A DNA stretch of 64,000 nt, taken from the NCBI RefSeq assembly GCF_002215215.1, contig NZ_CP018632.1:2414501-2478500 (forward strand), given 5' to 3'. A program made the position numbers and the translations under genes. Shown piece by piece: positions 49,313 through 52,540 of this stretch (the stretch's first letter is position 1; each line of letters starts with the position of its first letter). The stretch comes from Granulosicoccus antarcticus IMCC3135 (lineage in GTDB: Bacteria > Pseudomonadota > Gammaproteobacteria > Granulosicoccales > Granulosicoccaceae). The notes beneath the pieces are model-generated. The model did no database searches and was not told the origin of the DNA. It saw only the letters and a program-made list of their open reading frames with translations.

Positions 49313-49939
49313 TCAGGCTTGCAGGTAGTAGAACAATGCTGCGCCGACAGCAAGCATGACCATGGCCCAGCCCACACGCTCCATATTGCGTTCGATTAGC
49401 GGTGCAACGGCAGGTCCGGCGCGTGCAACCAGGTAGGATTCCAGAAAGAATCGTGCCCCGCGTCCAATCACGGATGCTGCCATGAAGGGGGCAAAAGCCA
49501 GCCCCAGAACGCCGGCTCCGATGGTGAACAGTTTATAGGGAACCGGTGAAAACCCTGCGATGAACACCGCCCAGAAACCCCAATGTGAAAACCAGCTCAG
49601 CACCAGGTCAAATTGATGTTGCCAGCCGATTTTGACAATAAATGGTCGTATGAGATCGCCTCCGTATATACCGATCATGTACCCCAGAATGCCACCTAGA
49701 ACGGAGAACAAGGTAGCGATCAAGGCGTATCGCATGGCACGTTTCGGTTTGGCCAGCGTCATGGGAATGAGCATGGTATCGGGTGGCAATGGGAAGAACG
49801 AGGACTCGGCGAAGCTGACCAGTGCCAGCCATCGCTCGGCATGTCGGTGACCTGCCCATTGCATCATTTTGCGGTAGATCGACCCGAACAAACCGGCATT
49901 GACGCTGGTTGAGGGAGTGGGGCCTGGTAGTGCGGTCAT
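49313..49939 (-). CDS. YqaA/DedA-family membrane protein
   Basis: The 208 residues have about five hydrophobic helices. SFAESSFFPLPPDTMLIPMT and GFSPVPYKLFTIGAGVLGLA with an Arg-rich turn (RGARFFLESYLV) are the DedA/SNARE-associated (VTT) marks. These proteins are linked to lipid scrambling across the membrane and to envelope and pH homeostasis. The E. coli YqaA subgroup matches best by the CPD-like loop. The preceding 25 residues are polar. It is convergent with the HtrA gene. Confidence 0.85.
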   Translation of the reverse strand: MTALPGPTPSTSVNAGLFGSIYRKMMQWAGHRHAERWLALVSFAESSFFPLPPDTMLIPMTLAKPKRAMRYALIATLFSVLGGILGYMIGIYGGDLIRPFIVKIGWQHQFDLVLSWFSHWGFWAVFIAGFSPVPYKLFTIGAGVLGLAFAPFMAASVIGRGARFFLESYLVARAGPAVAPLIERNMERVGWAMVMLAVGAALFYYLQA

Positions 49940-50116
49940 TATGTGGGTAAGGTCTGGTTGTAAAGCGGCATTCTAGGGCATCAAACTGACGAAACGCTGA
50001 CGATTTCATCTGTATTTCGTCATTTCCGGGCTTTTTCAGGTAACCGGATTATCCTTCAAGTGCCGTAAATATTTATAGTATGATGTGGGCTCGTTCACAA
50101 ACTGGAATAGACGCAG

Positions 50117-51064
50117 GTGTCTGACAATTCCAAATCCAAAACACTGCACTATCTGCGCTCCGTGCACGATGGTCAGCCCCGCAATATAGAGGCATCCATT
50201 CGTCTCATGCTGCGCCGCCGGCGTGTCTGTAAAGACACGGAGCTGGATCCTGGCGATCAGTCGATCATGCGCATTCAGCACCGTCGGGTGTCTACTTCAA
50301 ACAATCCGGTTCTTTTGCATCTGGTCAAGTATGTGCCGGGTGAGAAAGCTGCAACGCTGGATCCTGAGCCCGAAGGAGCCGAGGATGAAGAAGGTGCTCA
50401 GCGACCACCTCGTGGCAAGGAGTTCAAGGCCGGTGAATGTTTCATGCTGGTCAACGATGCCGACGTCATCTTTTGTGCCAGTGGCATTACCCAGGCTGCA
50501 GCCAGAGTGTATTTTCGGCAATTCTTTGCGGAGTGTGGTGTCGAGAAAGAAATGTGCCTGTTCGATTTGCTGCCTGCCGCAGATCTGGACCGGCTCGCGA
50601 TCATCCGCAAGCACGGCGTGGGGTCCATACAGTTGGGAAGCGTTGCCTACGAGGCCAGTCGCAAACTGTTGCCGGACAACTCGACCATGGGGCGACGTTT
50701 ACTAAAGAGCGTTTCTGATCAGGTAGCCGCTCTGGTTGCCAAGGATGACACCGTGCTTGAACAACGCGCCATGGAGGATCTGATTGTGAACGTGGAGTTG
50801 AAGCTACAGGGCAATACTCATGCAGATATCGAAGCGCAGCGTTCGATTGACAAAATCGCGGTTGCCATGTTGTCTGATGAGCAAGGTAGCGAGGGTTTTA
50901 CCATCGTGACGCGCGATGGCAATCGCCTGTCAGATCTCTCGGTCAAGCTGCACAAACGCATCAAAGTGACGTCATACAATAACTCTGTAGAGCATACTTC
51001 GGTCTGGACGGCATTGAGCAACTATTACGATGAGCTGAAGGAGGGTAAACTGCTAGAGACATGA
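50117..51064 (+). CDS. Unrecognised soluble protein, first gene of a two-gene unit
   Basis: The 315 residues start at a GTG. They have an Arg-rich stretch (LMLRRRRVCKD), an acidic linker rich in Glu/Asp/Pro (about 85-100), a compact middle domain (FKAGECFMLVNDADVIFCAS, FFAECGVEKEMCLFDLLPAA), and a C-terminal domain with FTIVTRDGNRLSDLSVKLHK and a final helix. No TM helix is visible and I recognise no family. The stop overlaps the next start as ATGA, so it acts with the four-TM protein that follows. See the findings for a comparison with the Kiwa phage-defence layout. Confidence 0.7.
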   Translation: MSDNSKSKTLHYLRSVHDGQPRNIEASIRLMLRRRRVCKDTELDPGDQSIMRIQHRRVSTSNNPVLLHLVKYVPGEKAATLDPEPEGAEDEEGAQRPPRGKEFKAGECFMLVNDADVIFCASGITQAAARVYFRQFFAECGVEKEMCLFDLLPAADLDRLAIIRKHGVGSIQLGSVAYEASRKLLPDNSTMGRRLLKSVSDQVAALVAKDDTVLEQRAMEDLIVNVELKLQGNTHADIEAQRSIDKIAVAMLSDEQGSEGFTIVTRDGNRLSDLSVKLHKRIKVTSYNNSVEHTSVWTALSNYYDELKEGKLLET

Positions 51065-51576
51065 ACCTATCTGACATCACGATTGACTGGCCGCGCATTT
51101 CCGGTTTTGTACTGGCTGCGGTGGCGTCGTGTGTGGCTGGTTGGTACGGACAGCCATTGGTTCATGGCAACGCCGAAGCGTCACGCATCATAGTCAACGT
51201 GTTCTCGATCATGGCCGGGGTTCTGATAACCATCATGACCTTGTTGGGAGAACCCAGCCTCTATCGTGGCAGAAACTGGCGTGCGGATGCGGTGCGACGC
51301 AGCAATGTGTATCGTCGCCTTGTTCGCCAGAAAATTCTGTTCGTTCTCTATCTGGTCACCCTGGTGTTGGTATTCCTGTCCAGTCTGTTCAAAGGGGAGT
51401 ACAGCAGCCTTGCCGTGTTGCGATACATTGAGATTGCCTACTTGTCCTGTGCCTGTATGGCATTCATTCTGTCGATGAATCTACCGGGGCGATTGACCAG
51501 TTTGCAGCTGGCCAGATTTGACGAAATGGTAGAAGCACGCCGCAAGGCGGAGAAGCCTCGCAAAGAGGAAGGTTGA
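51061..51576 (+). CDS. Four-TM membrane protein, second gene of a two-gene unit
   Basis: The 171 residues have four hydrophobic helices at about 10-30, 42-62, 90-112 and 122-142, and a charged C-terminal tail (MVEARRKAEKPRKEEG). The ATG overlaps the stop of the preceding gene by four bases. No family is recognised. The pairing with a soluble 315-residue partner in one unit suggests a membrane-anchored complex. Confidence 0.7.
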   Translation: MNLSDITIDWPRISGFVLAAVASCVAGWYGQPLVHGNAEASRIIVNVFSIMAGVLITIMTLLGEPSLYRGRNWRADAVRRSNVYRRLVRQKILFVLYLVTLVLVFLSSLFKGEYSSLAVLRYIEIAYLSCACMAFILSMNLPGRLTSLQLARFDEMVEARRKAEKPRKEEG

Positions 51577-51766
51577 TCGTTCCCGGCATTTGTAAACCAG
51601 CGTGACATGTCATGCTCTGCTGCGGATATGCTCTAAGTGATGTGTATACTTCGTCACATATAAATGCGCACGCGCAGTTGCACTCCAGGCTTTTGCTGAC
51701 TGTAAAAACCATCAGTTTATTTTAGATGAGTTGCGTCTTTTTCTCACCAGATGCCTTGAATCACCC

Positions 51767-52540
51767 ATGGTTGACAACGGTATACATCGATTGGCCAGCG
51801 AGTCCGGATCAGTAGCATCAATGAGTGACAATGGCGAGGTTCTGGTCGTTGCCACAAGGCAGGCCGATGCCATCAGATTATGCGATATTCTTTGCCTTGC
51901 CGGTTACAGGCCGCACTGGTGTCCCGATTTTTCTTGTTCTGAGCGACTGCAATCCAACGGCAAACTGGCTACCAGCATCGTAGCCATTGTGCTGTGCCAC
52001 AGGGTTCAAGCGCAACCAACCGGAACAGGCCCCAGTGGCATCAATCTTCCCAGCGAGCTGCCTAATCAATTACGCTGCCGAAGGATCATTGCGGTATCGG
52101 ATTGCACGGCTGAGCAGACCGTTGTTTCCTTGCTGGATGATGGCGCGCATCATTGCTTCAACTTGTTGGAGAGTTCCTCTGTACTGCAAGTGCGGTTGGA
52201 GGCAGCACTGCGTCATCATGGTCGTCCCATCAACGACATTCTGACGTCCGGGAATATCAGCTTCGATCTGCTGAAACGTCGAGTGACGCACTCCGGTTTT
52301 GTTGTCGATCTTTCACCGAAGGAATATGAGCTGGCCTACTACCTGTTTTCGAATCGGGACCGCCTGGTAGAAAATGGAGAGTTGCTGACTTCAATATGGT
52401 CTTTGCCAGCGGGAATGGAGACGCGTCGTATCGATACGGCAGCGTGCCGCGTGCGCAAGAAACTCAAGCTGACAGCAGAGCATGGCTGGGAGCTGAAACG
52501 TCAGAGACGTCTCGGCTACCGCCTGGTTCGAACACACTAG
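51767..52540 (+). CDS. OmpR-type winged-helix protein with a degenerate receiver
   Basis: The C-terminal 95 residues are a winged helix like OmpR/PhoB effector domains (LSPKEYELAYYLFSNRDRLV, RRIDTAACRVRKKLKL, GYRL at the end). The N-terminal 120 residues resemble a receiver in layout but lack the phospho-accepting Asp (IVAIVLCHRV where Asp is expected) and the switch Lys. It is probably a phosphorylation-independent regulator. The start is uncertain: ATG codons at 51767 and 51821 both fit, and neither has a good ribosome site. No histidine kinase is adjacent. Confidence 0.75.
   Translation: MVDNGIHRLASESGSVASMSDNGEVLVVATRQADAIRLCDILCLAGYRPHWCPDFSCSERLQSNGKLATSIVAIVLCHRVQAQPTGTGPSGINLPSELPNQLRCRRIIAVSDCTAEQTVVSLLDDGAHHCFNLLESSSVLQVRLEAALRHHGRPINDILTSGNISFDLLKRRVTHSGFVVDLSPKEYELAYYLFSNRDRLVENGELLTSIWSLPAGMETRRIDTAACRVRKKLKLTAEHGWELKRQRRLGYRLVRTH

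Follow-up and report, generated by a model that had tools for sequence, protein, structure and literature searches.

A candidate RexAB-type gene pair at a chromosomal locus of Granulosicoccus

The locus in Granulosicoccus

The gene pair described here lies in a stretch of 64,000 nucleotides from Granulosicoccus antarcticus IMCC3135 (in the following "the window"), whose genome of 7.78 Mb consists of a single contig. The locus comprises three features:

50117-51064, plus strand: gene A, for a putative RexA-like soluble protein of 315 amino acids (open reading frame with GTG start; relatives; predicted model)
51061-51576, plus strand: gene B, for a putative RexB-like protein of 171 amino acids with four transmembrane helices (open reading frame with ATG start; alignments; predicted model)
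51061-51064, plus strand: ATGA overlap of the stop codon of A with the start codon of B (sequence)

The open reading frames bear out the two-gene unit with an ATGA overlap that had been proposed in a first-pass annotation of this DNA, the shared bases being 51061-51064. Overlaps of four bases between A and B recur in several of the viral-contig loci presented below, and translational coupling of the two genes via the overlap is likely. The annotation had recognised neither gene, and neither protein reaches the curated cut-offs of Pfam or NCBIfam; neither these two collections nor PADLOC contain a curated model that recognises the A-B pair. In PADLOC, protein A has no match and protein B a single weak one (TIR). 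The weak matches of B in Pfam (DUF373, CtaG, NMN transporter and others) and in PADLOC (TIR, 2TM, RTasSLATT, CARF-TM) mostly vary from member to member, the NMN transporter being the commonest (19 of the 41 members), and were discarded as generic membrane-helix matches. In the PHROG search, residues 63-312 of A match phrog_26543 (E 1.7e-21), which by sequence is the same protein family as A and carries no assigned function in PHROG. Homology to a housekeeping family, which the annotation had named as evidence against its own reading, was not found in the searches made. Promoter and terminator scans of the locus yielded nothing above chance. Named phage records matched neither the window DNA from 49940 to 51700 nor protein A, and the same holds for A and B of the genome G206. 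Viral contigs scanned with a single A sequence likewise gave no matches, and sequence searches of the PDB with A alone and with profiles of A and B returned nothing significant.

Gene A is present in five of the 27 Granulosicoccus genomes, each time with B directly behind it. Four of these copies have the gene of an HtrA-type protease on one side and, on the other, a winged-helix gene that is followed by an RNase J-like gene, and the fifth, on a short contig, has the winged-helix neighbour in common with them. In a relative without the pair (G014), HtrA is followed by two other genes and then by the winged-helix gene, and tblastn revealed no trace of A or B. The dN/dS values among the five copies range from 0.03 to 0.12, computable in 17 of 20 comparisons and with synonymous sites mostly near or past saturation; A and B are under purifying selection and their open frames are not due to chance. 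Neither a repressor nor a prophage gene is found among the compared flanking genes at the window's own locus. The conserved chromosomal surroundings and the lack of an adjacent repressor switch suggest that the Granulosicoccus pair most likely serves the cell rather than a prophage.

Two neighbouring genes deserve mention. A DedA/VTT-domain gene (49313-49939, minus strand) is located between HtrA and A in the window and, in a comparison of the HtrA side with three relatives (G012, G019 and G024), is missing there from all of them, which indicates that the site itself is changeable. The gene immediately after the pair (51731-52540, plus strand) encodes a winged-helix (Trans_reg_C) protein in which no receiver domain was detected. 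This protein is fast-evolving, with 55-57% identity between species compared with mostly about 80-86% for the downstream genes; its gene is also found next to the RNase J-like gene in genomes without A-B.

Co-occurrence and distribution of the pair

Scanning viral contigs with B retrieved 42 loci, and in all 42 A is located directly upstream; in 40 of them it is a full open reading frame of 299-368 amino acids, and in the other two (L022 and L031) it is partial. The distance from A to B ranges from -89 to +41 bases. One further locus, found with A (L061), is without B, its A being cut by the contig end. Outside the genus, both genes were confirmed in nine of nine further pairs with profiles built without them (A: E <=1.5e-42). 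The co-occurrence of A and B elsewhere, on which the annotation had made its reading depend, is thus near absolute. The pairwise identities of A and B are closely correlated (r 0.90 for 39 members; r 0.866 for the 34 non-redundant ones), and none of 1000 permutations reached as high a value.

In genomes, the family is sporadic. Apart from Granulosicoccus, the pair occurs on plasmids of Ketogulonicigenium (three records, one examined), Shinella and Sinorhizobium fredii and in the genomes G206, G229, G499, G501, G759 and G912. It was found in two of 397 other genomes of the phylum, in two of 25 genomes of one Pseudomonas-like genus and in five of 398 genomes of the Pseudomonas-like family, one of these five being partial; G749 has a partial B match (49 positions) without A. 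The pair on the Ketogulonicigenium vulgare plasmid (L006, 1-6921) adjoins genes for type I restriction-modification and for a GIY-YIG nuclease, and this locus is likely a defence island. In G206 (L015, 6526-9503), the gene before the pair resembles what we take to be a tail protein D of the P2 type. The position after the P2 tail protein D is a known cargo site of P2-like prophages.

The neighbourhood of the viral-contig pairs was tallied for 35 of the 42 loci, leaving out the near-duplicates L020, L033, L041, L042, L044, L054 and L057. Among the families listed (the best 25 of 176 and the best 25 of 124), the genes nearby include repressors, CI- and CII-like regulators, and portal, terminase, head and tape-measure proteins; the open reading frames were called by length only, so that some of them are spurious. 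Ten upstream open reading frames, hand-picked from 132 as candidates for repressors and searched singly, comprised two repressor-like ones. One example is L027, with a CI-like protein (HTH_3 and Peptidase S24) on the same strand whose end lies 253 bp before the pair, which matches the lambda order cI-rexA-rexB. The other example is L035, where the end of an S24 protein lies 615 bp before the pair in the same order with an intervening open reading frame of 74 codons. Other viral-contig pairs sit among head and tail genes, which shows that the position within viral contigs varies.

The syntenic chromosomal locus in Granulosicoccus and its purifying selection would also suit a cellular role outside of defence, with the pair acting as a membrane-tethered RdgC-like DNA-binding protein in, for example, recombination or chromosome maintenance, and RdgC is described as sharing the fold of RexA (PMC11077077). 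However, the sporadic occurrence within the genus, the phylum and the Pseudomonas-like family, the 42 loci in viral contigs and the plasmid copy beside a type I restriction cluster all speak against such a role, which we therefore consider unlikely. The RexAB-type reading that we prefer draws its further evidence from the two proteins themselves.

Predicted structures and comparison with RexA, RexB and Kiwa proteins

The structure of A was predicted with AlphaFold from an alignment of 40 members (pLDDT 82.2, pTM 0.77), namely 37 of the 42 viral loci together with the window, L007 and L008; the partial sequences of L022 and L031 and the near-duplicates L042, L054 and L057 were left out. The model consists of a mostly-beta split domain (about 1-155 and 276-315), which a strand and a helix at the C-terminus (276-287, 293-309) close, and an inserted second domain (about 159-272) with four strands and several helices, the least certain part of the model (block mean pLDDT 51-71 over 171-240). 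This predicted architecture fits the published description of RexA, in which a seven-stranded split globular domain (1-139 plus 248-279) surrounds a four-stranded, four-helix dimerisation domain (PMC11077077). In a search with a structure aligner, lambda RexA (8twq) was the best match of the A model, with a Z of 12.4 and an alignment over 224 of 279 residues, followed by chains of Iml3 (Z 7.7) and of Chl4/CENP-N (Z 7.2 and below). RdgC, IML3 and CHL4 are the fold relatives named for RexA in the available text of the same source (PMC11077077), so that the runners-up agree with a RexA-like fold. The alignment with RexA has an rmsd of 15.9 A, which reflects a different orientation of the domains in the A model and could be explained by a closed-to-open domain rotation as proposed for RexA. 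With plain Foldseek, A had no PDB match at E 0.001, RexA not being among the best 50, and a Foldseek search of viral models retrieved four uncharacterised phage proteins at E <=1e-6. Across the 40 members of A, G167 alone is invariant. The window's protein does possess the Arg-rich and acidic segments that the first-pass annotation had pointed out in A, but distant members do not conserve them.

The sequence comparison was based on profiles of RexA and RexB with 12 sequences each, hand-picked for diversity from lambda-type phages, from L090 and from 27 further loci in viral contigs. L090 (891-2202, minus strand; genome G625) represents a divergent RexA/RexB pair, whose RexA is 26-29% identical to lambda-type RexA and whose RexB resembles family B in its TM2; this pair served as a bridge for widening the RexA and RexB families. 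Against the RexA profile, A obtained an hhalign E of 0.016 in a single comparison (probability 2.8, score 24.4), and none of 60 shuffles reached this score (best 21.7). With two RexA profiles of five sequences, one and four of 60 shuffles scored as high, respectively. These comparisons point to a weak sequence link between A and RexA. The RexA family of Pfam (PF15969) did not match A up to E 1, has no match in the window's genome and is not among the best 25 of the 26 families retrieved with the 40 A members. DUF4747 is a motif reported for Sbash gp30 and RexA. Three DUF4747 proteins showed no similarity to A (E 0.27), and the bridge that DUF4747 might provide to the Sbash type of RexA is uninformative, since the RexA profile does not match DUF4747 either (E 0.8). 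In L154, L155 and L156, which belong to three genomes, a DUF4747 gene is followed downstream by a gene for a rather hydrophobic protein, and these soluble-plus-membrane pairs may be Rex-like.

Protein B was modelled from 41 members (AlphaFold, pLDDT 85.4), whose alignment covers 38 of the 42 viral loci and leaves out L041, L042, L054 and L057. The model contains helices at 10-34, 38-63, 65-68, 73-110, 118-138 and 141-164. Four hydrophobic stretches, set by eye at about 13-33, 43-63, 91-111 and 121-141, fall in the helices 10-34 and 38-63, in the second half of 73-110, and in 118-138, which supports the four-TM protein of the annotation. The conserved positions of B comprise the TM2 motif FSIxAGxL, G53, L55, W73 in the central loop and an extra C-terminal helix with the pattern LPxxLxxxQxxR. 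The loop between TM2 and TM3 carries charges of +8/-2 and the C-terminus +8/-6 (segments set by eye), and as expected from loop charge, both termini and the long central loop would be cytoplasmic. The same topology is given for Sbash gp31. A fold search with B returned generic helix bundles only.

Against the profile of 12 RexB sequences, B obtained an hhalign E of 7.8e-5 in a single comparison (probability 61.6, score 34.8), with 92 collinear columns that extend from TM2 to TM4. The controls remained lower: 60 column shuffles reached at most 19.9 (none as high) and the reversed profile 14.8, and five unrelated membrane proteins of the window scored 13.2-23.9 over at most 25 columns, the latter being an easier control because they were given as single sequences. 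No similarity was found between B and lambda-type RexB alone, where 37 of 60 shuffles scored as high. With one bridging member added, two of 60 shuffles were as high and the reversed control was higher, and the window's single B matched the RexB profile with an E of 0.018 over 13 columns. The link between B and RexB thus appears only with bridging RexB members, and at the level of sequence we regard it as weak to moderate.

The first-pass annotation had compared the pair with the Kiwa system, in which KwaA and KwaB would stand in reversed order. For this comparison, KwaB proteins were collected with PF16162 and KwaA taken as the membrane genes in front of them, resulting in profiles from nine of 11 loci for KwaB (L066 and L071 left out) and from ten of 11 for KwaA. 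Both comparisons are at noise level: for A and the nine KwaB sequences, hhalign gave an E of 0.53 and 11 of 60 shuffles scored as high; for B and the ten KwaA sequences, the values were 0.19 and six of 60, so that both identifications were rejected. Furthermore, PF16162 has no match in the window's genome, no Kwa model occurs among the PADLOC matches of the 40 A and 41 B members, and no Kwa family among the best 25 of 26 (A) and 25 of 64 (B) Pfam families of the members. The structure-aligner matches listed for A contain no KwaB chain, which by itself does not show its absence, and the A model matches RexA. What the two systems share is the size of the proteins and the plan of a four-TM protein with a soluble partner, and a Kiwa-like system is accordingly very improbable. 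The broader proposal of a membrane defence or sensing pair fared better, since a membrane-linked pair whose soluble partner has a nucleic-acid-binding fold is well supported, in contrast to the Kiwa comparison.

A putative phage-exclusion system and its known counterparts

The fold of the A model, the link between B and RexB, the order of A before B, the four TM helices, the conservation of the unit and its neighbourhood in viral contigs all argue for the conclusion that A-B is probably a RexAB-type phage-exclusion system, forming a sequence family that is separate from lambda RexAB. By analogy with the known systems, A would be a cytoplasmic sensor with the RexA fold, probably dimeric and clamping DNA irrespective of its sequence, as suggested by its relatives, and B the effector, a four-helix membrane protein that probably forms oligomers. 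During infection, A would encounter phage DNA, an intermediate of replication or recombination, or a protein of the phage and then contact the cytoplasmic loop of B. The opening of B would cause leakage and growth arrest and thereby stop the infection. DNA binding, triggering, membrane damage and phage exclusion are all ascribed to A-B here from these counterparts.

The roles might also be reversed, with A as the antiviral or toxic component and B as a membrane anchor that restrains it. Butters gp30/gp31 is described as a precedent with the same architecture (PMC12894663, PMC7542560), and the conserved W73 in the central loop of B and its C-terminal helix could bind A. However, of the five Rex-like systems described, four are considered to have the membrane protein as their effector (PMC12894663), and the conservation of B is strongest largely in its membrane helices (TM2 motif, G53, L55), as expected of a pore or channel. 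We consider this distribution of roles quite unlikely and retain B as the putative effector of a RexAB-type system.

Three aspects of this RexAB-type reading appear to be new, namely a broad and distinct A-B family, a syntenic chromosomal A-B copy that lacks a repressor switch, and, on moderate evidence, a membrane partner B that is a true relative of RexB. Among the matches listed for RexA and RexB in the open-licence literature, no title deals with the A-B family or Granulosicoccus, and the available text of the Pseudomonas putida paper (PMC12894663) does not mention Granulosicoccus. The furthest-reaching version, in our view an evenly balanced proposition, is that A-B represents a large unnamed RexAB family whose Granulosicoccus copy is host-owned, fixed in the chromosome and devoted to phage exclusion only, freed from the role in the lysis-lysogeny decision proposed for lambda RexA. 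The dozens of diverse A-B pairs provide sequence variation for mapping the sensor and the pore, and the chromosomal copy without adjacent cI/cro makes exclusion testable apart from the lysogeny switch.

Five RexAB-like systems have been counted, those of lambda, RexABpp, CarolAnn, Sbash and Butters (PMC12894663). Lambda RexAB, described in the same source as the earliest Abi system to be linked to phage defence, with its activation by T4 rII said to be still unknown (PMC12894663), resembles A-B in its gene order, in the size class of A, in the four-TM partner and in the RexA fold as predicted for A; relatives of A-B moreover occur in viral contigs, at least one of them behind a CI-like repressor. 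The differences concern the length of the proteins (RexA 279 and RexB 144 amino acids vs 315 for A and 171 for B), the extra conserved C-terminal helix of B and the overlap of A and B, whereas lambda rexA and rexB do not overlap. Unlike in lambda, the Granulosicoccus locus has neither a prophage nor cI/cro. The authors of the RexA structure regard it as unknown if Rex homologues truly serve exclusion or if exclusion arises as a by-product (PMC11077077). Sbash gp30/gp31, CarolAnn gp44/gp43 and Butters gp30/gp31, compared here by description, each combine a cytoplasmic with a four-TM protein in a prophage-borne defence system.

A further counterpart is RexABpp (PP_5643/PP_5644) of the P. putida prophage P1. 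Its RexA has a published DALI Z of 8.8 to 8TWQ and its partner is a four-TM protein (PMC12894663). The seven published residue positions of RexBpp settle nothing, since at most three of them were matched in the scanned B open reading frames and five by an open reading frame of L120 that is not B. The 37.5 kDa of His-tagged RexApp fit A proteins of 325-338 amino acids, as encoded by three of the four full Pseudomonas-like pairs (307 in the fourth one), and RexABpp, compared by its published description only, may belong to the A-B family. As described, its defence needed both genes and overexpression of RexA was toxic only with RexB, and while dye uptake rose, neither depolarisation nor binding of RexA to RexB in a two-hybrid assay was seen (PMC12894663). 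RexABpp was recognised as Rex-like by the same kind of evidence as presented here for A-B and it defends P. putida (PMC12894663), thereby supporting the RexAB reading of the Granulosicoccus pair.
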